The notes beneath the pieces are model-generated. The model was not told the origin of the DNA, did not search any database, and worked only from the letters and a program-made list of their open reading frames with translations. Shown here piece after piece: positions 4,364-20,492 of a stretch of DNA of 64,000 bases. The position numbers were made by a program, and so were the translations under genes. Location: contig NZ_QFGA01000001.1 of the NCBI RefSeq assembly GCF_004369205.1, positions 1,054,001-1,118,000 on the forward strand. Direction: 5' to 3'. The stretch is from Pelotomaculum schinkii (lineage in GTDB: Bacteria; Bacillota; Desulfotomaculia; Desulfotomaculales; Pelotomaculaceae). Positions within the stretch are counted from its first letter, which is position 1. Each line of letters begins with the position of its first letter.

Positions 4364-6784
4364 TCATTTCAAGATAGGCAAACTTTTAAGTTGATCATAT
4401 TTATTCGCCAGCTCCGGTGACAGATTACCAGCCTGAACAAGGAGATCTTGCGATTCTTGCACCTGACCCTGCTTGTCCCGCAGGGCGGCTAACCAGAGAG
4501 AAGCCGCTCCCTTTGTCTTATTATCGGCAAGAGCAGCCTGCAGGTTGCTGTCGGCTTCAGCCCATTTCCCAAGCAGATACAGAGAAGAGCCTAAGTAAAG
4601 TTTAACCGTTGGGGTTACCGTCATCGGTGGGGCATCTTTCCAAAGGCGTTTTTCCTCTTCGCCGAGGGTTTCTATCTGTCTTTGGATTTTGGCCGGCACT
4701 CCTGCTACTTGTTCCAAATATTGTTTCGCCGCGTCGCGATTGTCGTCGGTTAGTTCGTTATATCCGGCTACGAAGTAGGCCTGGGATAGGAGCTCGTACC
4801 GCTGGATCTCGAATGGGGCCAGGGAAAGTGCTTTATGGGCGGCCTGCACGGCTTCATCATTTTTCTTCGCTGCCGCATAGATGACGGACAAATCTGCGTA
4901 GCGAACGTCGTTGTATTGACTCAACTTCACCGCCAGACAGGCCTCAGCAATGCTCTGGTCCATTTTGCCCTGAGCCAGATAAAGATGGGCCAGATCAATC
5001 CGGTAAACGGGATCAAGGTGATAAGTGGCGTTAGTTGGATTATAAACTGAAGCTTTTTGTAACAGGGCAAGGGCTTGATCATAGCTTTTAGCATGCTTTG
5101 CGTTTGTGTAACTGTTACTGGAAGCTACTAGAGCGCCGCTGAAAATAAGCAGCAAAACCGTCGCTACCGACGCTCCGACCAGAACGGCATTATTGGGCGG
5201 CACATATCTCCTGCTATTCTTCTCTTTGGCTTTGTTTGTTGCATGGCTCAAGATACCCCTTGCTAGACCGAAAAGGGTCCAGAGAACCATGGAGAGAGCA
5301 GATAAGGAAAGGTCAAAATCAATGACGGCGTGTATCCCCACTGAAAGCGCTGCTATGGTGATGGTCCAGATCAAGATCCCGGCGGAGACATCCTCCTTTG
5401 CCCCATGGCAGAGCCTGTTGGCGGTGTATAAAAAGGTGACCCATATACCCAGTATAGTAAGCAGCCCGAGGACGCCTGCTTCCACCATAATCTGGAAGTA
5501 ATTCCCGTGTACCTGGTTGGAAATATAGAAATAGCCCTGGAAGGCGCGGTAGGCCTCCTGCCAGCCACCGCCGCCCCAGCCGATGATGGGACGCTCCCTG
5601 AACATCTTCATGGCATCATGATAGAAGTAAAAACGCTCGATAGCATTCCTGAACTTTAATATTATCTGTTCTGTGATTTTTTTTGCGATATCGGGATGCG
5701 TATTCAAATAATACGCCAGACCGACAGCAAGTACAATAACCACCAGCAACAAGATACCAATAGTTATTTTCTTATTTCCTTCAATCCGCCAACAAATGCC
5801 CCTTTTTTCTGCAGACAAATATAGAAATTGTCCCATTAGCGTCACTGTTAAACCAATAAAAATCCACAACCATGCCAGGACCATCTTTTGAGTGGAAACA
5901 GCTGAAAGAAACTGCCAGACGGCAATAGTCGAAGACATCCCGATAAGAGCAAAATGTAAAATTACCGGTATCCTGTTACATTTAGACAAACCAATGATGA
6001 AAAGGACAAAAACAAGTGAAAATACCAGGAGTCCACCATATGACTTAGTACCAAGAAGTACTGCAAAGAGCAGGAAATTCCCAGCGGCATAGAGATAATG
6101 GCTCATATTGTTTAAATTCAACCATGCCGGAACGTATTTTGATATTGTTCGTTTAACTACACCGTCCAACTCTTGTAAACTAGTCTTCCGCCAGAGGTAA
6201 AGCCCGATAAATATTACCGCTGCCAGATAGCTTGCCAGGGCGTTGGGGTACTGGAAGGAGGAATAAATCCGCCCGTTCAGAAAGCCGTCATTAATTTCAA
6301 TGATCCCGGTGGCGGTGGCCAACCCTGCCAAAGCCACGCCGACGGCACTTATATAGATGATATGTAAAATGGTGACAATATCTTTATCGTTTCTTACGAG
6401 CCGTGAGGACAGCCAGTAAACCATAAAATACAGGGCGGTCTTGACCACCTCGTCTACCGCTAGTCCATAGTTGGCGGCCTGAAAGGCCGAAATAAGGTAG
6501 ACTATGGGAAAGGCCAGGACGAAGTAGTCCAGCGGGTGGGAAAGGAAGCTGTTGTCACGCTTCGACCACTTCCACAGCCAGGCAACCCCGAAGAGAACGG
6601 TGGCAAAAAACAGTGCCCGTTCCTGCTCGGGCTGGAAGAATAATCCTCTGAAGTAAGGTGGCAGGAACAGTAAAACCCCCATTCCCCAAAAGGCAATCGC
6701 GTGGCCTAAATCCAATTGATTATTTTGGAGATTGCTCTTAACCGCTTCAATTTTCTTTTTATTCTTCGATTTCGCTGCAACCAC
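4364..6784 (-). CDS. O-antigen ligase (Wzy_C) domain protein with C-terminal TPR repeats
   Basis: 806 aa. The start is taken as GTG at 6784 because AAGGAG lies 8 nt upstream; an upstream in-frame TTG at 6808 has no ribosome binding site. Residues about 35-520 contain about a dozen membrane spans with the large loop and the RERPIIGWGGGGWQEAYRAFQ and VHGNYFQIMVEAGVLG motifs typical of O-antigen ligase/polymerase (Wzy_C/WaaL/PilO) proteins. The last about 250 residues are tetratricopeptide-like helices. Such fusions in Firmicutes are thought to transfer or polymerise surface glycans; the substrate cannot be told from the sequence. No neighbouring glycosyltransferases are present. Confidence 0.82.
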   Translation of the reverse strand: MVAAKSKNKKKIEAVKSNLQNNQLDLGHAIAFWGMGVLLFLPPYFRGLFFQPEQERALFFATVLFGVAWLWKWSKRDNSFLSHPLDYFVLAFPIVYLISAFQAANYGLAVDEVVKTALYFMVYWLSSRLVRNDKDIVTILHIIYISAVGVALAGLATATGIIEINDGFLNGRIYSSFQYPNALASYLAAVIFIGLYLWRKTSLQELDGVVKRTISKYVPAWLNLNNMSHYLYAAGNFLLFAVLLGTKSYGGLLVFSLVFVLFIIGLSKCNRIPVILHFALIGMSSTIAVWQFLSAVSTQKMVLAWLWIFIGLTVTLMGQFLYLSAEKRGICWRIEGNKKITIGILLLVVIVLAVGLAYYLNTHPDIAKKITEQIILKFRNAIERFYFYHDAMKMFRERPIIGWGGGGWQEAYRAFQGYFYISNQVHGNYFQIMVEAGVLGLLTILGIWVTFLYTANRLCHGAKEDVSAGILIWTITIAALSVGIHAVIDFDLSLSALSMVLWTLFGLARGILSHATNKAKEKNSRRYVPPNNAVLVGASVATVLLLIFSGALVASSNSYTNAKHAKSYDQALALLQKASVYNPTNATYHLDPVYRIDLAHLYLAQGKMDQSIAEACLAVKLSQYNDVRYADLSVIYAAAKKNDEAVQAAHKALSLAPFEIQRYELLSQAYFVAGYNELTDDNRDAAKQYLEQVAGVPAKIQRQIETLGEEEKRLWKDAPPMTVTPTVKLYLGSSLYLLGKWAEADSNLQAALADNKTKGAASLWLAALRDKQGQVQESQDLLVQAGNLSPELANKYDQLKSLPILK

Positions 6785-7677
6785 TAGATTGGCTCCTTCT
6801 TTTTTCAATGTTATCTTTTATTAGGTTTTTACTAAATACAATGTTGTTTATTTCTGTATTAATTTACAAATACCTTCTTGGTCTGACTTTTTTGTCAAAT
6901 TGGCATTTAAGTTTATTAGCAAGTTCCCGATCCTTCAGCAAACAATGATATGGCACAAGGTATTGTCAGGTGAAAATATTATAAAAAGGAGTGCAACTAA
7001 TTCATCAATTGGCTATTTTGCATACATATTATATTCCTCCTCTTATATTCCTCCTCAAAATTATTTCAAACTTGGTCCTATATTACGAGGTATAATTACC
7101 TGCTAGAATTGCGATTCACTAATTCTATAATAGGGGATAAAGACTTTTTCAGTGTATTATAGGTCAGTAAAACAGTATATTAGGTAAATAATATTGATAA
7201 GCATTGTAATATCACTATAATCTAATTATAGAGAATATTGTATATTAAGTATTATTTGAGTTTACTCTTGTAGGTTACAGTATTCCTCCGTTTAGCAGGG
7301 TGAGCAATTCATCAGGCCGAACTTAACAGGAACATATATGTAGCCTCGTTACACGCAAGCCCGGTGGCCAAGCTAGTCTATGTTAGGCAAAGGCAGCATG
7401 ATAAAGAGAAAAGACTAACCGTATAGCTTTTCACCCTCCTAAGGGGTATCCGGCGGCGACATGATGAAAAGAGTACGACAGCAAATATTTGACTTTGCAA
7501 ATTTATACCTTAAATATTCTTGGATACAGCATTTGTATCGGACGAGACTACTGAGAGGCTGGAAGAACTATTTTTAGTATAGTTTTTCATAGTTTTTCTC
7601 CGATATTTCTAAGAATAATGGTTGTCTGAACTTATGCAAGTAATATATATTAAAAAAAGAAAACCTAAGGTTAAAAT
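6785..7677. other. 893-bp AT-rich intergenic region with a GC-richer segment
   Basis: No convincing gene. It contains a 14-bp direct tandem repeat at 7029-7056 and a distinctly GC-richer block at about 7275-7500 with several short complementary segments (for example TAGTCT near 7374 and AGACTAAC near 7410). The block could be a structured leader RNA of the downstream exporter or a decayed intron or mobile element; I could not match it to a known riboswitch consensus. Confidence 0.4.
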
Positions 7678-9552
7678 ATGATAAATAAAAAATTTAATGA
7701 GAAATTAAAATATAAGTTTGCATTCTTTTGCAGAAAAGACTATCTCTATATAAAAAAAATACTTTTTTTTGTTAAACCATATAAATATTTATTTATTGCA
7801 ACATTTATTATTATAATAACAGGAATTGCCTTAAGTTTAATACAACCACTGCTATGGGGTAAAATTTTATCCAGCTTATTTATGAAAAATTACGACCAAT
7901 CATTTGTTTATACCTTATTTTTTTTTGTTGTATTTGCATTTCAAGCATTGTTAAGTTATATTCAAGGCTACTCATCTACTAACCTAATAAATAAAGTAAT
8001 TTATGATCTGAAAAATAAGTTATATAAAAAAATTTTAAATATGCCAGTTAAATATTTCGATGAAATGGGAACTGGTGACTTTGTTTCACGTATTCACAAT
8101 GATACCTCGGTTGTTTCATTCGTTATAATGAATTTATTTATTAACACAGCTGTTGATATATTAAAAATTTTTGTTGTAGGAATAACAGTATTCAATATAA
8201 ACGCGTTACTGGCATCAATTGTTATTTTAGGTTTTCCATTCTCATATTTAATCTTTAAAAAATACAGTATATTGTTAAGAGAAAAGAACAATAAAATTCT
8301 AAGTCTCACGGATGACTATCTTAGTAAATTAAATGAATCAATCTGCGGAATAAGAGATATTAAAGCAATTGGATTAAAGAATATCGATTTTAGAATATTC
8401 TCTTCGCTATCTTTGGAAATAAGAAATAATAATATAGAATTAAATATTTTAAGCAATACTGCACAAACAGCGACACAAGCATTCAATTATCTATCCCAAT
8501 TATTATTGATATTGATTGGTGGATACTTTGTTTGCAAGGAGACACTAAGTATTGAGTATTTTGTAGCGTTTTTCTCGTACTCCAGTATATTTAATAATTC
8601 ATTATTAAATTTAACAAAGGTAAATTCAAGTTTGCAACAAGTCTTCTCTTCATCAAGAAGAATATTTGAGTTAATTGATAATTCAATATATCAAGAGGAA
8701 GAGTTTGGAGATAACGAAATTGAACAAGTTGTCGGAAAAATAAAATTTGAAGAAGTAAAATTTGAATATATGTCAAGCTTGCCAGTTCTTAGGGGGATCA
8801 CTTTTGAGATACCCTGCAATAAAACAATAGCTATAGTGGGCAATAGTGGTAGTGGGAAGTCTACTATACTAAATTTGCTTCTAAGATTTTATGATCCATT
8901 ATCAGGGGCCATCTATATAGATGATATCAATATAAAGGACTTAACAGAGAATAAATTAAGAAAAAATATTTCTATAGTAAGGCAAAATCCAATGTTATTT
9001 AATAAGTCAATAAAAGATAATTTAATGGAGGTAAATCCAAATGCAACAGAAGATGAAATGCTGGAATCATGTAAGTTAGCTTGTATACATGATTTTATTA
9101 TGACTTTGCCCCAAAAATATGAAACATATATTGGTGAAAACGGAGTATTGCTGTCGATTGGTCAAAAACAACGAATTGCTATAGCTAGAGCTATTCTAAA
9201 AAAATCCAAAATAATACTATTTGACGAAGCAACTTCTTCACTCGATAACAATTTACAGTCTTATATAAATACGGCAATAAAAAAAATTTCAAAGAACCAT
9301 ACTGTAATAATTGTAGCTCATAAATTATCAGCTATTATTGAAGCTGATGAAATATTTGTACTAGATCAAGGTGTAATTTGTGATAGTGGCAAACACGAAT
9401 TCCTAATTCAACATAATAGTCTTTATAATAAAATGTTCAAATTGGAAGCAGAATTATTAATAAAGAATGGAAGTTCTGAAAAAACAAAGGAGGAAATATT
9501 ATATGATTTCAATGGGTCAACTACCAAAACCTTGGAAAGCGGGAATTGCTAA
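7678..9552 (+). CDS. ABC transporter ATP-binding/permease protein (peptide exporter of the RiPP cassette)
   Basis: 624-aa half-transporter of the ABC exporter type. About six membrane spans lie in residues 30-330, followed by a nucleotide-binding domain with Walker A GNSGSGKST (about residues 389-397), signature LSIGQ and Walker B IILFDEATSSLD. There is no N-terminal C39 peptidase domain, so it would export without cleaving a double-Gly leader itself. Very AT-rich compared with most of the window, as are the next native genes of this cassette, which suggests acquisition by transfer. It overlaps the maturase gene by 50 bp, implying translational coupling. The likely cargo is the Cys-rich peptide encoded at 14767. 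Confidence 0.85.
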   Translation: MINKKFNEKLKYKFAFFCRKDYLYIKKILFFVKPYKYLFIATFIIIITGIALSLIQPLLWGKILSSLFMKNYDQSFVYTLFFFVVFAFQALLSYIQGYSSTNLINKVIYDLKNKLYKKILNMPVKYFDEMGTGDFVSRIHNDTSVVSFVIMNLFINTAVDILKIFVVGITVFNINALLASIVILGFPFSYLIFKKYSILLREKNNKILSLTDDYLSKLNESICGIRDIKAIGLKNIDFRIFSSLSLEIRNNNIELNILSNTAQTATQAFNYLSQLLLILIGGYFVCKETLSIEYFVAFFSYSSIFNNSLLNLTKVNSSLQQVFSSSRRIFELIDNSIYQEEEFGDNEIEQVVGKIKFEEVKFEYMSSLPVLRGITFEIPCNKTIAIVGNSGSGKSTILNLLLRFYDPLSGAIYIDDINIKDLTENKLRKNISIVRQNPMLFNKSIKDNLMEVNPNATEDEMLESCKLACIHDFIMTLPQKYETYIGENGVLLSIGQKQRIAIARAILKKSKIILFDEATSSLDNNLQSYINTAIKKISKNHTVIIVAHKLSAIIEADEIFVLDQGVICDSGKHEFLIQHNSLYNKMFKLEAELLIKNGSSEKTKEEILYDFNGSTTKTLESGNC

Positions 9553-11491
9553 AGAAATTACTTTTTGTGTTACCGAAGATTGTAATTTATCATGCAAATA
9601 CTGTTATATGACCGGGAAAAATAATATTAATAAAATGAGTTTTGATGTTGCGAAACAAGCAGTTGACTATATACTTGCTGATAGGGAGAATTTTAATAAT
9701 GAGGCTATTGTATGGGGTTTTACGGGGGGAGAACCGTTTCTTGAAATTGAATTAATAGATCAAATAACAGATTATATAAAAATTCAAATGTATAGTTTAG
9801 AGCATCCTTGGTTTAATAATTATATGCTTCATTTTTCTACTAATGGAATTTTATATGATGCACCAAAGGTTCAAAATTATATTAAGAAAAATAAAGAACA
9901 CTGTTCAATTAACATTAGTATTGATGGAAATAAAATTAAACATGACTTACAGAGAATAAAAAAAGATGGTAGCGGTTCATATGATGATGTAGTAAAAAAC
10001 GTAAAGCTTTGGCAAGAACAGTTTATCGGGACTAGTACTAAATCAACATTTACTCATGAAGATTTGCCTTATTTGAAAGAAAGCATTATTAGTTTATGGG
10101 AATTAGGGATAAAGATGGTTGCTGCAAATGTTGTTTTTGAAGATGTATGGAATGATGGTGATGATCTAATTTTCGAAAGACAGTTAGTAGAATTAGCAGA
10201 TTATACTATAGAAAAAAAGATGTGGGATGATTATTCTGTACGTTTTTTTTCTCCTGATATTGGTTTTCCTTTAACAGAAGAAGAAATGCAGCGAAATTTT
10301 TGTGGCACAGGTAAAATGCTAGCAATTGATTGCAATGGAAATTTTTTACCATGTGTACGATTTTTGGATATAAGCCTTAACAATAGAAACAATTATTCAA
10401 TAGGGAATATATATACAGGTATTAATAAGGATAAGCTAAGACCGTTTAAAGTTTTGTCATTGAAAAATATAAGTAATATTGATTGTCTTCAATGTAATGT
10501 TGCATCGGGTTGTGGTTATTGTACAGGTTTTAATTATGATTATGCAAATACAATTTTTCAGAGAGCTACTTATGTCTGTAAAATGCATAAAGCTAATGTA
10601 AGAGCAAATAAATATTTTTGGGAAAAATTTGCCAAAACTACGGGTTTGGTTTCACCTAGGGAAGAATACTTAAGAAAAAGGAAATCACTCTCAAAGTATT
10701 TACTAATAATTACTTCTGACAAAATAACTCCACATTGTTCATATCGCAACTCACGTATAAACAAAACCGATATGAGTCAGGAGATATTATTATCTGGCTT
10801 GGATTATGCTAAGAAAAATGATTATATTCCGGTATTTTTGGGATTACCTCTATTATCCAATTTTGAAGCAAATGAACATCTTCTTATAATTGATGAAAAA
10901 TCTTATAAGGGTCAAAATAATGCAATTATAATATACGATAATAACATCGAACACACTAAAATCCCACCAATTAATTCTATTTTATTAATAACACCAGATA
11001 ACATTAAAAAAATCAGCAACTATATTATAAAATTAATAAACAATAATACTGAACGGATCAATTTGATCCTTGAAAATGTCGAAAATTGGAAAGATCATGA
11101 TTTACATCTCTATGAGATCGAATTAAATAAAATTATTAGTTATATTGTAGAACGCTATTCAATTAACAAACATATTAAAATTAACGTACTTACTGATTTA
11201 TTCGAACTTACAAAAATGAATAACTGTGATGCTGGGATTAGTACTATTTGTTTAGCACCAAACGGCAATTTTTACATTTGTCCAGCTTTTTATTTTAATA
11301 ATTCCGATAACATTGTTGGCAACCTGAAAATGGGTATTAATAATAATTACTTAAATCATATTGACAAGTGGCCAATATGTTCTGAATGTGATACATATCA
11401 CTGTAGAAGATGTTTATTTATAAATAAAAAATTAACAAATGAATTTTACATTCTGAATATGCCGGGTCAAACTGAACAGTTTGACCGCTGA
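9503..11491 (+). pseudogene. Radical SAM/SPASM peptide maturase, 5' part, interrupted by an IS21 element
   Basis: Start ATG 9503 chosen from AAAGGAGG at 9486-9493. The radical SAM cluster motif is C27-x3-C31-x2-C34 (CNLSCKYC). A SPASM-type cluster region follows at about residues 265-370 (FCGTGKMLAIDCNGNFLPC ... CLQCNVASGCGYC), and a second Cys-rich segment lies near the end (CLAPNGNFYICP ... CSECDTYHCRRC). The layout resembles the 'CXXX repeat peptide maturase' group that acts on peptides with C-x3-C repeats (family name recalled, not searched). Native sequence ends at 11453; the last 12 codons and stop at 11489-11491 come from the inserted IS21 element. The missing C-terminal 56 residues are at 14228-14397. 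The truncated product keeps all visible cluster motifs, so residual activity is possible. Confidence 0.85.
11447..11453. repeat. Target-site duplication, left copy
   Basis: TACATTC immediately left of the IS21-family element; an identical copy lies at 14221-14227. Joining the flanks through one copy restores the maturase frame as ...NEFYIPPKIQCLIS. Confidence 0.88.
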
Positions 11492-11619
11492 GATTGAACA
11501 GTGTCTCCGTTTGAAACTGGACACCCTTTCCGGCAAAGTTGAACACCGGATATGACCTTTCTGCTAAATTGAATTTATGCATCTGAAAGGTGCAAATAAA
11601 TTCAAGGAGGGTCATAGAG

Positions 11620-13158
11620 ATGACCAGTTACAAAGAGATTCTGCGGCTACATAGCCTCGGAATCAACAACAGCCGCATTGCGTCTGGATGCGGATGCTCT
11701 CGAACCACGGTTATTAACGTGCTTCAAAGAGCAAAGGATCAAGGGCTAAGTTGGCAGACAGTGGCCGAAATGTCCGACAAGGAGTTGTCACAGCGCCTTT
11801 TTTCTTCGGAGAGCGCTAAGCCCGCGTACAAAATGCCGAATTACGACTACATCCATCGTGAGATGGCGAAAAGCGGTGTGACCTTAACTCTGTTATGGCT
11901 TGAATACTGCGACCAGTGTCGCGAATCCGGGCAAGTACCGTACAAGTCGACCCAGTTCAACAAATATTACGCTGACTATGTGAAAAGCACCAAGGCAACC
12001 ATGCACATTCACCGTAAGCCTGGGGAAATCATGGAGGTAGACTCGGCGGGACAAACCGCCAGGATCATCGACACAGACACGGGAGAGATTATCCAAGCCT
12101 ATGTGTTTGTGGCTGCCCTGCCATACAGCGGCTATGCCTATGTGGAAGCCTTCCTTTCACAAAATCAGGAGAGCTGGATTACCGCCCATATCAACGCCTA
12201 TCGCTTCTTCGGTGGAATCACTCGCATTATGGTACCGGACAACTTAAAAACCGGCGTGGAGAAGGTGACGAAAGGCGAAGCAGTTATTAACAAGACCTAT
12301 CAGGAGATGGCTGAACATTATGGTACAGCGGTTATTCCATGCAGAGTTAGGGCTCCCAAAGATAAACCCACGGTAGAAGGATCGGTCGGCATCATCTCAA
12401 CATGGATACTCGCTGCTCTGCGTAATCAGCAGTTTTTATCGTTACGAGAGCTGAATGCTGCCATTCGGGAAAAGCTAATGGTTTTTCTAGAGAAACCTTT
12501 TCAGAAGAAGAACGGGAGCAGAGCCACCTTGTTCGATGAGGAAAAACCCTTCTTGCTGCCGTTGCCCTTAAAGCCATTTGAATTGGCGACCTGGAAGATT
12601 GCCACTGTTCAATACAATTACCATATCAGTGTGGAGACCCAGAAGTATTCGGTGCCGTTTGAATACATCAAGCAGAAAGTTGATGTCAGGATTACCCGCA
12701 ATGTGATTGAGGTCTTCTTCCAAGGCAATCGCATTTGTTCTCATCCCCGGCTCTATGGTAGGAGCAATCAATACAGCACCCTGGAAGCCCATATGCCACC
12801 AGATCATCAAAAATATGTGTCTTGGAACGGCGACCGCTTTAAATCCTGGGCAGCCAAAATCGGTGAGAATACAAGCGCTGTCATTAACCTGTTTTTAGGA
12901 AGTCACAAAGTCGAGCAGCAGGGCTACAAGGCTTGTATGGCTCTTTTGAAACTGGCCGACAAATATTCGGTGGAGCGCCTTGAATCGGCCTGCACCAAAG
13001 CATTGTCCTACACTGTACAGCCTAGCTTGAAGAGCGTTCAGGCCATCTTAAAATCCGGTCAGGACAAGCTGCCGAAAGAAACCCCGGGCCATTCCTCCTC
13101 TGAGTTTGGACTCACACGAGGAGCCGATTACTACAGCAGGAGGGATGGAAAATGCTAA
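11620..13158 (+). CDS. istA: IS21-family transposase IstA
   Basis: 512 aa; ATG 11620 follows AAGGAGG at 11604-11610. It has an N-terminal helix-turn-helix region (about residues 1-50, LHSLGINNSRIASGCGCSRTTV) and a retroviral-type integrase core that begins at the VDSAG motif (first catalytic Asp, about residue 139) and includes the later PDNLKTGV segment with the second Asp. A C-terminal beta-rich domain follows. It carries out cut-and-paste transposition of the element together with the ATPase IstB. It overlaps istB by 7 bp, the usual coupling in this family. Confidence 0.95.
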   Translation: MTSYKEILRLHSLGINNSRIASGCGCSRTTVINVLQRAKDQGLSWQTVAEMSDKELSQRLFSSESAKPAYKMPNYDYIHREMAKSGVTLTLLWLEYCDQCRESGQVPYKSTQFNKYYADYVKSTKATMHIHRKPGEIMEVDSAGQTARIIDTDTGEIIQAYVFVAALPYSGYAYVEAFLSQNQESWITAHINAYRFFGGITRIMVPDNLKTGVEKVTKGEAVINKTYQEMAEHYGTAVIPCRVRAPKDKPTVEGSVGIISTWILAALRNQQFLSLRELNAAIREKLMVFLEKPFQKKNGSRATLFDEEKPFLLPLPLKPFELATWKIATVQYNYHISVETQKYSVPFEYIKQKVDVRITRNVIEVFFQGNRICSHPRLYGRSNQYSTLEAHMPPDHQKYVSWNGDRFKSWAAKIGENTSAVINLFLGSHKVEQQGYKACMALLKLADKYSVERLESACTKALSYTVQPSLKSVQAILKSGQDKLPKETPGHSSSEFGLTRGADYYSRRDGKC

Positions 13159-13898
13159 ACGATTCAACCGTAGCCAAGCTTCACGAAATGAAGCTTAGTG
13201 TCATGGCTGCAGCATTCCGGGAACAGCTCAAAAACGCAAACTTGTCTGACATGGCTTTTGAAGAACGCTTCGGTCTGCTGATCGATGCCGAATGGGCAGC
13301 CCGTAAAAACAATCGGCTGTCGCGCTTGATCAAAAACGCGGGTTTTGCCTTCAATGACGCTTGTATTGAGAACATTGAGTATCATGACGATCGCAAACTC
13401 GACAAAGCTCAAATCATCCGCTTGGCTAGCTGTAACTACATCCAAGAAGCCCATAACATCATAATCCTTGGAGCCACGGGTAGCGGAAAAACCTACCTCT
13501 CAAATGCTTTTGGCATGGCTGCCAGCCGAAACTTTTACACGGTTAAATATGTACGGCTTCCCGATCTGCTGGGTGAATTGGCCATTGCACGCGGTGAGGG
13601 GACATACCGCAAGGTCATCAAAGCTTACAAACAGGTAAAGCTGCTCATTTTGGATGAATGGCTTCTGTTTCCGCTCAAGGAAAGCGAAGCCCGCGATCTG
13701 CTTGAGATCGTAGAATCTCGTTACAAAAAAGCTTCTACCATATTCTGTTCCCAGTTTGAGATCGGCGGTTGGTATCATAAAATTGGCGAACCGACACTGG
13801 CCGATGCCATTTCAGATCGCATTGTGCATGATTCCTACACCATTTTTATCGACGGTAAAAACTCTATGCGGGAGCGCAAGGGTATTGCCAACAGATAA
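13152..13898 (+). CDS. istB: IS21-family helper ATPase IstB
   Basis: 248-aa AAA+ ATPase of the DnaC/IstB type. Walker A is GATGSGKTYL (about residues 105-114) and Walker B is LLILDEW (about 162-168). IstB oligomerises on target DNA and recruits and stimulates IstA. Normal length and apparently intact, so the element may still be mobile. Confidence 0.95.
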   Translation: MLNDSTVAKLHEMKLSVMAAAFREQLKNANLSDMAFEERFGLLIDAEWAARKNNRLSRLIKNAGFAFNDACIENIEYHDDRKLDKAQIIRLASCNYIQEAHNIIILGATGSGKTYLSNAFGMAASRNFYTVKYVRLPDLLGELAIARGEGTYRKVIKAYKQVKLLILDEWLLFPLKESEARDLLEIVESRYKKASTIFCSQFEIGGWYHKIGEPTLADAISDRIVHDSYTIFIDGKNSMRERKGIANR

Positions 13899-14220
13899 TT
13901 CAAAACAGCCTTACGGCTATTGAGGGCTCTGCCCTCAAACTCCCGAGGTTTATCGCTTAGTTTTCCAAAGAGAGTGATGTTATGTTGCTTTTAACAAAAA
14001 AAGAGCGACGCTCACCGGCATCACTCTCCCCGCAAAACTCTTAAGCCGCTCGGGTCACTCCTCAGTGTTGCCCTATCCTGCTTAAAAGTAAAAGCAGTTT
14101 GAGTATACCATGTGATCCTTTAGTTATCAATGTACAGCCACTACGGAATGATTGTTCAATTTAAACGGTCTTAGTGTTCAACTTCGGCGGTCTAGGTGTT
14201 TTTTCTTAGCGGAATATACA

Positions 14221-14397
14221 TACATTCCCCCAAAAATACAATGTTTAATTAGTAATACAGAAAAAAAGGCTGCTCAAAAATTGCAAAAGCTTTTACAGGA
14301 AAAACATGATGAACATTTTGAAAATATTTTATCCATTACCGACTATCTAGATCCACTAGAAAAATTAGATAGCAAAAGGAGCATTGCTAATGAATAA
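14221..14397 (+). pseudogene. 3' fragment of the interrupted radical SAM maturase
   Basis: Starts with the right copy of the target duplication. Its frame continues the maturase precisely when the IS21 element and one TACATTC are removed: 1951 + 170 nt gives 707 codons, a 706-aa protein. The tail (IPPKIQCLISNTEKKAAQKL...) includes one more Cys followed by an amphipathic helix. The stop codon TAA at 14395-14397 overlaps the start of the next small gene, confirming the original operon structure. The fragment has no start codon of its own apart from element-derived sequence upstream. Confidence 0.88.
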
Positions 14398-14683: not shown

Positions 14684-14766
14684 AGAAATTCAAATATATA
14701 TAGAGAAAAAATTTCTAATCCCTATGTCAGTGATATAAATTATTTAATAATGAAAGGATGATACTA

Positions 14767-14916
14767 ATGAAGCATCTAATGTCAAGTAAGATAAGCGATT
14801 CGTTTGAAATTGCAGCAAATTATAGCTGTATATCCTGTGATACCGTATCCCAGTGTGTGTTTGCATGTGGCAACAACTGTTCGAGTCACTGCACCTTTAT
14901 AAATGCTGGATACTAA
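14767..14916 (+). CDS. Putative Cys-rich RiPP precursor peptide with C-x3 repeats
   Basis: 49-aa peptide; ATG 14767 with AAGGATG about 7 nt upstream. The N-terminal 20 residues have no Cys and could be the leader. The core holds six Cys at 21, 24, 30, 34, 38 and 42, of which the last four form three consecutive C-x3 units (CVFA, CGNN, CSSH, C). It ends in TFINAGY. There is no Gly-Gly before the core. The gene is the last of the ABC exporter/radical SAM/partner set and is followed by a perfect palindromic terminator. The combination suggests a thioether-bridged (sactipeptide or ranthipeptide-like) product. It is easily missed because it is so short. Confidence 0.78.
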   Translation: MKHLMSSKISDSFEIAANYSCISCDTVSQCVFACGNNCSSHCTFINAGY

Positions 14917-14919
14917 ACA

Positions 14920-14957
14920 AAAATATTATGAATAATCTAGATTATTCATAATATTTT
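14920..14957. terminator. Perfect 38-bp palindromic terminator after the precursor gene
   Basis: The whole 38-bp stretch is an exact inverted repeat (18 bp each side of a central TA), AT-rich with A-tract and T-tract ends. It starts four bases after the precursor stop codon and probably ends the RiPP operon. Confidence 0.85.
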
Positions 14958-14992: not shown

Positions 14993-16215
14993 GTATTTTG
15001 TTAAATCTTAAACTATAAACAAACTCATTTTCGTGGTATACTCTTCCCAGGAGGGAGGGGTATGCCTTGCCAAAAATAAGATACCATGTACGTCTTTCTG
15101 ATGAGGAGCGGAAGACCCTGCTCAAGATCGTTTCCAGAGGTTCCGCCTCGGCAAAAACCATCATGCATGCCAATATTCTGTTGGCAGCTGATGAGAACGG
15201 CACGGGCGGGCGAAAGAGCGAATTTGAAATAGCAGCGTTGTTTCATGTTCACCCGCAAACCGTTCATACCATTCGAAATCAGTACTCGGAACATGGGCTG
15301 CAGGCTGCGCTCGGCAGAAAGAAACGCGAGACGCCGCCCGTTGAACCGAAGATTACCGGTGAAGTGGAAGCAAAGATCATCGCATTGAGCTGCAGTTCAC
15401 CCCCGTCGGGACGATCCAGATGGACGCTAAGGCTGCTGGCGGATAAAGCGGTTGAATTACAGTACATTGACAGCATCTCTTATGTGGCCGTTGGACGGCT
15501 TTTAAAAAAACGAACTGAAACCACATCTCCGTAAATGTTGGTGTATTCCGCCTGAACAGAACGCCGCCTTCGTCGCCTGCATGGAAGATGTTTTGGATCT
15601 GTACCAGCAGCAATATTGCAGACTATATCCGGTCGTCTGCATGGACGAAAAGCCGTACCAACTCCTTGGTGAGACCAGAACCCCGATCCCGATGAAGGCC
15701 GGAAGGCCTGAGTGTCAGGACGGTGAATATGTCCGCAACGGAACCTGCAGCATCTTTGTCTTCACAGAACCATTGGCAGGCTGGAGACATGTAACAGTCT
15801 GTGAAAGAAGAACTCGGGTTGACTGGGTAAACCAGTTCCGGGAACTGCTTGATGTTCATTATCCAAAAGCAAAAAAGATCCGGTTAGTGATGGATAATCT
15901 GAACACTCATACCACAGCATCGCTTTATGAAGCATTTACACCGGATGTAGCCAGAAGCCTCGCTAAACGCCTTGAGATCCATTACACGCCAAAGCATGGT
16001 AGCTGGCTTAACATAGCCGAAATCGAACTGAGCGTAATGTCCAAACAGTGTCTGGAGCGCCGAATTTCTTCAATTGATTCCCTTCGCCTTGAACTGTTGG
16101 AATGGGAAACTGCAAGAAACAGGAGTCAAAAGGGTGTTGACTGGCAATTTACGACCACTGATGCAACAACCAAATTAAAGCGGCTTTATCCACAGTTTAA
16201 GAGTTAACAGCGTAC
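14993..16215 (+). mobile_element. IS630-family insertion sequence
   Basis: 1223-bp element flanked on both sides by the dinucleotide TA (14991-14992 and 16216-16217), the target duplicated by IS630/Tc1 elements. Terminal inverted repeats match over about 25 bp: GTA....GTTAA.TCTTAAACT at the left and the same in reverse complement at the right. One transposase is encoded in two overlapping phases. Confidence 0.9.
15067..16207 (+). CDS. IS630-family transposase (two frames joined by -1 frameshift)
   Basis: The first frame (15067-15534, TTG start after GGAGGGAGGGG) encodes the helix-turn-helix region. The second frame encodes the DDE catalytic core up to 16207, with CMDEKPYQLL and LVMDNLNTHT giving two catalytic Asp residues and HGSWLNIAEIE the last Glu. 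The frames meet at an A7 run near 15506-15512; slipping back one base continues as NELKPHLRKCWCIPPEQN, a typical IS630 junction. This could be programmed -1 frameshifting, as known in some IS630 members, or a disabling mutation. Combined length is about 380 aa, normal for the family. Confidence 0.82.
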
Positions 16216-18647: not shown

Positions 18648-20492
18648 TCAACAAATAACCACTTGATAATTTCTAAGCCAGGTGTCCACCTGGATCAGAT
18701 AGGCCAGGAACTGGGGACCCCTCATCAACTGGCCGAACCAGGGCCGGTCAAAGACGGCTGTTTCGGAGGCAGCCAGGGCGCGGACAGCTTCGATGTTGAT
18801 CAACCGGCGCAGGGGGGCTTCCCGGTCGTCCAATATTTCCAGCATCTTCCTGCTTACCGCCGCCAGATAGGATGGGTTGTGGGTTTTCGGGTAGGGACTT
18901 TTGCTCCGCTCCAGCACATCATCCGGCAGCAGTCCGGACATGGCCCGGCGCAGAATGCCCTTGGACATATGGTCGCAGTTTTTCATGGACCAGGGGATGT
19001 TCCAGACATACTCAACCAGGCGGTGATCACAGAAGGGTACCCGCACCTCAAGCCCCACGCCCATGCTCATGCGGTCCTTCCGATCCAGGAGGGTCTGCAT
19101 AAACCTGGTGATGTTGAGGTAGAAAATCTCGCGCATGCGGGCTTCCAGCGGCTCCTCGCCCTTTAAACGCGGCACTTCCCCGAGAGCGTCCTGGTAGCGC
19201 CCGGCGACATATTCTTCCGGCCTGATCAGATCTACCAGTTCGGCAGACAGGAACCCTGCCCGCTCCCGCACAAACTGAATCCAGGGAAAAGTGGCTTCAG
19301 TCAAGGCCGCACGGCTGCGAAACCAGGGATAGCCGCCGAAGACCTCATCGGCAGATTCACCGGAAAGGGCCACGGTGGCGTCTTTTTTTATTTCCCGGCA
19401 AAAAACAAACAGTGAAGAGTCGATATCCGCCATGCCGGGCAGGTCGTTGGCCAGTACCGCCGGGACCAGGGCCTCCGTCAGTTCAGGAGTATCTATTTCA
19501 ATCCGGTGGTGGCAAGTGCCGAGAAATTCAGAGACGCGTCTTACCCAGGGGGCGTCGGAATTGGGCTGAAAGTGGTCCGGCTTGAAAAACTGTTCGTTGT
19601 CCCGGTAATCGACGGAATAGGTGTGCAGGGTTCCCAGGCCGTCCCGTTTGAAGGCCCCCGCGGCAAGGGCGGTGATGATACTGGAGTCCAATCCGCCGGA
19701 CAGCAGCGTGCAGACGGGGACATCGGAAACCAGCTGGCGTTCCACCGCGTCACAAAAAAGGTTCCTGATCGTGGCCGCAGTTACTTCCAGGCTGTCTTCG
19801 TGCGGCTTGCTTTCCAGCGCCCAATAGCGGCGCAGGTGTATGCCGTTACGATCATAGAGCAGGCAATGCCCCGGCCTGATTTCCGCTACACCGCGGTAAA
19901 TCCCGTGGCCCGGCGTGCGGGAAGGCCCCATCACCAGGATTTCGGCCAACCCTTGCGGATCGACCTCAGGTTTAACCGCCGGGTGGGCCAGCAGCGCCTT
20001 TAGTTCGGAACCAAAGATAAAAAGCTCCCCTTTAAGAGCGTAAAAGAGCGGTTTGACACCCAAACGGTCGCGGGCCAGGAACAAACTCTGCTCGGCTTCC
20101 CCCCATACAGCAAAGGCGTAAATGCCGTTAAACTTCTCCACACATGCCGTCCCCCATTCAATGTAGGACAACAGAAGGACTTCCGTATCAGAATTGCGGG
20201 TGAGAAAAGTATGGCCCCGTGCTTCCAGCTCCTTTCTGAGATCCATAGTATTATAGAGCTCACCGTTATAGACGATGGTATAGACGCGCTCTCCCAGCCG
20301 CCGGGTCATCGGCTGCCCGCCTCCCTCCGGGTCAACTACAACCAGCCGTCGGTGGCCCAGGGCGGCATGGTCCGACAACCATTCTCCTTCCGCATCCGGC
20401 CCGCGCCGGGACAGCGTTTTAACCATTGCCTCCAGAGTTGGCCGCTGTTGGGTTAAGTTACCATCCCAGTCAACCCAGCCTGTTAATCCACA
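18648..20492 (-). CDS. asnB: Asparagine synthase (glutamine-hydrolysing)
   Basis: 614 aa from ATG 20492, chosen because the next codon is the catalytic Cys2 (MCGLTGW) and AAAGGGAG lies upstream; an upstream in-frame extension would bury this Cys. The class II glutamine amidotransferase domain (residues 1-200, with RRGPDAEGEW and YNGELYN) releases ammonia from glutamine. The synthetase domain (about 240-600) carries the PP-loop LLSGGLDSS and the ALSGESADEVFGGYPWF motif, and makes asparagine from aspartate and ATP via an aspartyl-AMP intermediate. AsnB homologues can also amidate cell-wall or natural-product substrates, so the exact role is less certain than the family. Confidence 0.93.
   Translation of the reverse strand, partial: CGLTGWVDWDGNLTQQRPTLEAMVKTLSRRGPDAEGEWLSDHAALGHRRLVVVDPEGGGQPMTRRLGERVYTIVYNGELYNTMDLRKELEARGHTFLTRNSDTEVLLLSYIEWGTACVEKFNGIYAFAVWGEAEQSLFLARDRLGVKPLFYALKGELFIFGSELKALLAHPAVKPEVDPQGLAEILVMGPSRTPGHGIYRGVAEIRPGHCLLYDRNGIHLRRYWALESKPHEDSLEVTAATIRNLFCDAVERQLVSDVPVCTLLSGGLDSSIITALAAGAFKRDGLGTLHTYSVDYRDNEQFFKPDHFQPNSDAPWVRRVSEFLGTCHHRIEIDTPELTEALVPAVLANDLPGMADIDSSLFVFCREIKKDATVALSGESADEVFGGYPWFRSRAALTEATFPWIQFVRERAGFLSAELVDLIRPEEYVAGRYQDALGEVPRLKGEEPLEARMREIFYLNITRFMQTLLDRKDRMSMGVGLEVRVPFCDHRLVEYVWNIPWSMKNCDHMSKGILRRAMSGLLPDDVLERSKSPYPKTHNPSYLAAVSRKMLEILDDREAPLRRLINIEAVRALAASETAVFDRPWFGQLMRGPQFLAYLIQVDTWLRNYQVVIC

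Follow-up and report, generated by a model that had tools for sequence, protein, structure and literature searches.

Does an open reading frame of 49 residues, six of them cysteines, standing behind a radical SAM/SPASM enzyme encode a true RiPP precursor, to which system would it belong, and does its pathway still work in the strain that carries it? We addressed these questions for Pelotomaculum schinkii using one stretch of 64 kb (64,000 nucleotides), referred to as the window.

The precursor gene and its operon

The operon consists of an ABC exporter, a radical SAM/SPASM maturase, a small partner, the precursor and a hairpin, with all genes on the forward strand (Table 1). The initial annotation had described the exporter, SPASM enzyme and partner correctly, but neither its title nor its reasoning mentioned the 2.77-kb IS21 element that lies within the maturase gene; its statement of what would refute the proposal refers simply to "the intact enzyme". 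Its description of the short reading frame was accurate: a ribosome binding site precedes the ATG, the 20-residue leader is free of Cys, and the six Cys are spaced by 2, 5, 3, 3 and 3 residues, such that the last four (C30, C34, C38 and C42) follow in exact C-x3 steps. An in-frame ATG at 14758 is an unlikely start because it overlaps the Shine–Dalgarno-like AAAGGA. The perfect palindrome behind the stop codon, which ends in TTTT, is probably the transcription terminator that closes the operon.

Table 1. Features of the CXXX-repeat locus, in window coordinates
Feature	Position	Strand	Evidence or remark
ABC exporter, 624 aa (ABC_membrane + ABC_tran)	7678-9552	+	Pfam PF00664 E 3.5e-34, PF00005 E 2e-30
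Maturase 5' part, first 650 native codons	9503-11452	+	Identical to empty-site protein through residue 650
Target duplication TACATTC (7 bp), two copies	11447-11453, 14221-14227
IS21-family element, 2767 bp, inside maturase gene	11454-14220	+	PF01695 IstB E 1.5e-58; rve; Mu-transpos_C_2
istA	11620-13158	+	Within IS21-family element
istB	13152-13898	+	Within IS21-family element
Detached maturase 3' end, C-terminal 56 residues	14228-14397	+	TIGR04119 positions 160-208, E 4e-9
Partner, CXXX repeat peptide modification system protein, 97 aa	14390-14683	+	TIGR04116
Shine–Dalgarno-like AAAGGA of precursor	14753-14758	+	8 nt upstream of ATG; read from sequence
Cys-rich precursor, 49 aa	14767-14916	+	ATG start, translation MKHLMSSKISDSFEIAANYSCISCDTVSQCVFACGNNCSSHCTFINAGY
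Precursor layout			Leader, residues 1-20; core with C21, C24, C30, C34, C38, C42
Perfect 19+19 palindrome ending TTTT	14920-14957	.	Repeat search; behind precursor stop

The pattern C-x3-C-x3-C-x3-C occurs twice in the six frames of the window, in the precursor and at 18952 on the minus strand, and at most once in first-order Markov shuffles of the window (mean 0.05). This spacing is unusual by itself, and the case for a gene is made by its context and relatives. A chance reading frame might be suspected from the small size and from a top database match that falls under its cut-off, but the frame has a ribosome binding site, sits behind the partner gene with the palindrome immediately after it, carries a pattern hardly expected in shuffled sequence and has relatives of equivalent position and length in an Oscillospiraceae MAG (L007) and an IMG/VR contig (L080). 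A chance origin is therefore extremely improbable, and the reading frame is a true precursor gene of a CXXX-repeat RiPP.

The G+C content of the operon DNA (750-bp bins, 7750-11499) is 25-31%, against roughly 43-50% outside and 47-49% in the IS element, and among 113 genomes of the order only 3 had a TIGR04116 match, while the 397 others sampled across the phylum had none. The AT-rich composition together with this rarity suggests that the operon was acquired horizontally. A second insertion element, an IS630-type transposase spread across two frames (HTH_32, then DDE_3), lies just past the operon at 15067-16207. PADLOC matches to viperin and Mad3 were set aside as generic radical SAM and ABC similarity. 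A large membrane protein with a repeat-rich C-terminus, O-antigen-ligase-like by eye, is encoded at 4364-6808 and again in G013, a genome of the same bacterial family (L056, 6122-8803); its presence near RiPP genes in both hints at a common insertion region.

A divergent member of a named system

The initial annotation had proposed an undescribed system. In NCBIfam, however, its maturase, partner and precursors already have models (TIGR04114 to TIGR04119). The chemistry is another matter: as the annotation had held, the group is largely uncharacterized chemically, in the sense that no open-access paper was found on the TIGR model names, on "CXXX repeat" or on the chemistry of the system, and no mass data on the class were found in the literature. 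The maturase scores 524.3 bits with TIGR04115 (cut-off 350) and 204.4 bits with TIGR04119 (cut-off 150), the last quarter of the latter domain lying behind the IS element, and the partner scores 67.4 bits with TIGR04116 (cut-off 50). The proposed search with profile models thus placed maturase and partner in the system, whereas the precursor resembles TIGR04118, with a nearly full-length match of 23.8 bits (E 3.3e-5) under a cut-off of 35. It misses every curated precursor cut-off in NCBIfam, and neither it nor the partner has a Pfam match above cut-off.

Since the precursors of three relatives (L007, L008 and L066) also fall under the TIGR04118 cut-off, we place the 49-aa peptide in the system and not in TIGR04118. 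A Cys-x3 repeat peptide (C30-C34-C38-C42) does adjoin the maturase, and the locus is an additional member, with a divergent precursor, of a RiPP system that NCBIfam has named and whose chemistry lacks description. It thereby extends a curated family for which no product was found in the literature.

Relatives of the locus

The relatives comprised two clostridial MAGs (L007 and the Lachnospiraceae MAG L008), an Anaerococcus plasmid (L066), the IMG/VR contig L080 and a human faecal contig (L068). The initial annotation had tied its proposal to short Cys-repeat reading frames beside related maturases; such frames are present in L007, L008, L066 and L080, so the absence that would have spoken against a CXXX-repeat precursor was not observed. 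The order maturase, partner, precursor is common to the window, L007 and L080. The L007 locus holds a maturase, a partner, an ABC exporter and seven precursors, one of them (48 aa) between partner and exporter and the other six also of C-x3 type; in L080 a 49-aa Cys peptide with spacings of 2, 3 and 5 lies between partner and ABC exporter. L008 combines maturase, partner and ABC gene with two precursors of 18 Cys, and L066 (pAPRE01) carries a precursor of 56 aa, its four Cys at a spacing of three, together with a maturase, a stop-shortened partner and an ABC gene. On the faecal contig each of the two maturase domains is encoded as a protein of its own, and a precursor of 174 aa and 32 Cys adjoins them. 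Across the peptides of these relatives the residues between the Cys are mostly G, S, T and N.

Several of these loci have further features. The two 18-Cys precursors of L008 (10120-11562) are near-identical, part of the ABC gene being duplicated ahead of the second, and are a recent tandem duplication. Plasmid pAPRE01 (L066, 1-10204) is a conjugative plasmid of Anaerococcus prevotii in which the CXXX-repeat cluster is immediately next to one for a class III lanthipeptide; the TIGR04116 gene of the plasmid ends early, at 41 aa. In the faecal contig (L068, 2222-6270, filed as a phage record) the 32-Cys precursor has a Tat-like start, SRREFF, and the split TIGR04115 and TIGR04119 genes are followed by a TatC gene (PF00902, E 2.9e-59), which suggests that the modified peptide is exported folded via Tat and not by an ABC exporter. 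A second Cys-rich peptide, of 39 aa (MRILLPKANTEAKMCDSSCTGCGTVCQASGCAYNCSGPS), lies behind the TIGR04116 gene in G013 and G020 (L056, 191-2820, and L057). Its companion is a radical SAM enzyme resembling PapB (282 bits against a cut-off of 340) that itself has a Cys-rich C-terminus, and the stretch looks alike in these two genomes from different genera.

As genome queries, TIGR04116 was specific, whereas TIGR04119 matched most genomes via ordinary SPASM domains. The maturase alone gave no matches to viral contigs; matches were obtained with alignment-based scans. On these contigs (L069 and L070-L077) TIGR04115 maturases without the TIGR04119 domain adjoin very large Cys-repeat proteins of up to 408 aa and 77 Cys; in L071 (2993-4219 and 4899-6221) the maturase reaches 513 bits with TIGR04115 (cut-off 350). 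In L077 (864-8255) the Cys protein is flanked by baseplate J and tail genes on one side and by GH25 lysozyme and holin on the other, which is a tail-fibre position, and it is possibly a radical-SAM-crosslinked tail protein. No paper on such a phage-type Cys-repeat/radical SAM protein was found.

Maturase architecture and leader recognition

A feature missed by the initial annotation is a second, degenerate radical SAM/SPASM unit in the maturase. In six maturase sequences the Cys of the radical SAM CX3CX2C motif and of the first SPASM domain are invariant. When six C-terminal halves were compared with six N-terminal halves as profiles, 294 columns aligned with a probability of 97% (E 7.7e-11). 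The C-terminal half has kept the SPASM Cys pattern, and a single aligned Cys is left of CX3CX2C (C412, in PHC). It is also matched by the TIGR04115 and PapB models, and the genome search returned it as a second stretch. As read from these alignments, it is a predicted pseudo-radical-SAM/SPASM duplicate of the catalytic half. A single-sequence structure prediction of the L007 maturase reached a mean pLDDT of 35, too low to carry this argument, so the duplication is argued from the profile comparison, the model matches and the second genome-search stretch. The separate TIGR04119 protein of the faecal contig indicates that the pseudo-domain can exist on its own. No paper on a pseudo-radical-SAM domain was found in the open-access literature.

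The solved structure closest to the catalytic half is 5wgg (E 3.5e-41), the SCIFF ranthipeptide maturase CteB, whose N-terminal part is a recognition domain. The catalytic half of the window maturase opens directly with the radical SAM fold. Because the alignment begins at CteB residue 93, this N-terminal recognition domain is absent from the maturase, leaving the TIGR04116 partner and the pseudo-domain as candidates for leader recognition. The partner is predicted to fold as a helical hairpin with a beta hairpin (pLDDT 77), and a fold search returned generic coiled-coil matches only (best E 0.5, best Z 7.9); no winged-helix recognition domain was listed among its structural matches, although the partner may still be related to one.

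State of the locus in this strain

The IS21 element has seven full copies in the genome; their flanks define the ends as TG...CA, and the copies are bordered by short target duplications. Removing it in silico restores an empty site with a single maturase frame of 706 aa. The maturase gene is thus not uninterrupted, which bears on function and not on membership of the system. The truncated reading frame extends to 11491 (650 native and 12 IS-derived residues) and retains the radical SAM domain and the first SPASM domain. The detached 56 residues carry C656 (empty-site numbering), the seventh and final Cys in the second SPASM domain, conserved in all five aligned relatives.

The insertion has cost the maturase these last residues and pushed the partner and precursor 2.77 kb further from the first genes. 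Loss of the last SPASM ligand together with this separation makes a working pathway doubtful, and maturation has probably been lost or weakened in this strain. Whether the locus is dead altogether, with the maturase inactivated, partner and precursor uncoupled and the peptide a relic, is evenly balanced. The insertion itself argues for such a relic, as does a profile search of the genome, which found no second maturase above the TIGR04115 cut-off; in G013 the maturase gene is likewise broken near its 3' end, its two parts lying on different contigs and the break showing repeat-rich sequences that resemble the ends of another insertion element. Both flanking frames, the partner and the precursor are intact, however, the empty site reads through, and the catalytic domain is still present. 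Most of the IS copies in the genome are 100% identical, which also counts against a dead locus since the element may have arrived too lately for decay to be visible. By analogy with the phage-type relatives, of which TIGR04115 is the sole domain, the truncated maturase may still be active, because it keeps that domain complete; many single auxiliary-Cys mutants in the thuricin CD system remained active. AgrB and LytTR response-regulator genes lie directly upstream of the G013 maturase (L049, 1968-3465), which makes quorum-sensing control of that locus possible.

A Cys-rich reading frame beside a maturase is therefore not proof of a functioning pathway. The natural truncation, which removes one conserved auxiliary-cluster Cys, makes the role of this domain testable.

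Proposed maturation

We consider it probable that the observations are jointly explained by a CXXX-repeat precursor that is recognized by its leader, bridged into a thioether ladder and exported, with maturation impaired here. Its genes, family assignments, insertion and relatives are directly shown; the chemistry, leader recognition, export and loss of function are what we infer. At an intact locus, leader residues 1-20 would be held by the TIGR04116 partner, the C-terminal pseudo-radical-SAM domain or both, since no N-terminal recognition domain is present in the maturase. Within every C-x-x-x step one residue would lose an H atom to the N-terminal radical SAM domain, and the Cys thiolate, bound at an auxiliary SPASM cluster, would close the thioether, with a loss of 2 Da for each bridge. 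The outcome would be a ladder of small rings spanning C30-C42, to be cleaved by a protease and exported by the ABC exporter, in which Pfam found no C39 peptidase domain.

Thioether bridging by this maturase is plausible by analogy with the PapB and SCIFF enzymes. In PapB the substrate thiol binds at the auxiliary cluster (PMC10470005) and the acceptors are Asp or Glu three residues past Cys (PMC9413430); PapB, SCIFF and QhpD enzymes form thioethers to beta or gamma carbons (PMC8326336; PMC10470005). The top non-self models for the maturase are PapB, SCIFF, CcpM and QhpD, with RumMC, the sactipeptide model, lower. As the nearest enzymes bridge to beta or gamma carbons, thioethers are favoured, and those of the window precursor would probably not be at alpha carbons. 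Sactipeptide-type chemistry, with Cys sulfur joined to alpha carbons, is unlikely: the enzyme superfamily is the same, Asn, Ser, Thr or similar acceptors would permit it and RumMC does match (E 8e-23), yet the maturase fits PapB (NF047865, 198.1 bits, cut-off 340), SCIFF (TIGR03974, 127.3 bits, cut-off 425) and QhpD (114 bits) far better than RumMC (81 bits), the first two scores lying under their cut-offs.

A ladder of Cys that binds metal or forms disulfides, the radical SAM enzyme performing epimerization or C-C bond formation, is rather improbable. Cys-dense peptides of small residues do look like metal-binding peptides and the chemistry of the class lacks description, but in bacteria and phages unrelated to one another the Cys periodicity goes along with the maturase family.

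More tentatively, the maturase could combine a catalytic and a pseudo-catalytic unit in one chain that contains two SPASM domains, in which the degenerate half and TIGR04116 replace the recognition domain and a thioether ladder is built on non-acidic acceptors. Asp or Glu three residues past a Cys occurs in C21-x3-D25 alone, and the C30-C42 ladder contains neither, which, like the precursor scores under the curated cut-offs, counts against the maturation proposed above. If this is true, the ring ladder would be a bridge pattern not yet described and the IS-truncated maturase a natural test of the role of the second SPASM domain.

Comparison with known systems

The locus shares with the NCBIfam CXXX-repeat system (AC3_0185 family) a TIGR04115 plus TIGR04119 maturase, a TIGR04116 partner, a short C-x3 precursor and a nearby ABC exporter. 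It differs in a precursor under the TIGR04118 cut-off with irregular first spacings (2, 5) and in the IS21 insertion that divides its maturase gene. PapA/PapB (freyrasin-type ranthipeptides) contribute the next most similar radical SAM/SPASM enzyme by model and likewise place three residues between a Cys donor and its partner, whereas here the repeated C-x3-D/E of PapA is reduced to a single instance, the enzyme lacks the N-terminal recognition domain, and a pseudo-radical-SAM/SPASM half and the TIGR04116 partner are additional. SCIFF (CteA/CteB) supplies the solved structure nearest to the catalytic half, and its peptide, about 45 residues long, likewise contains six Cys, but the maturase here is without the N-terminal domain and precursor and partner are different. 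Thuricin CD (TrnC/TrnD) serves as a working analogy, since it pairs a catalytic radical SAM enzyme with a second protein of radical SAM fold, TrnD, which has been modelled as mainly leader-binding and works without its own radical SAM cluster (PMC12093266). There the two are separate proteins and the bridges are to alpha carbons, whereas here they form one fused chain whose second half is without CX3CX2C.
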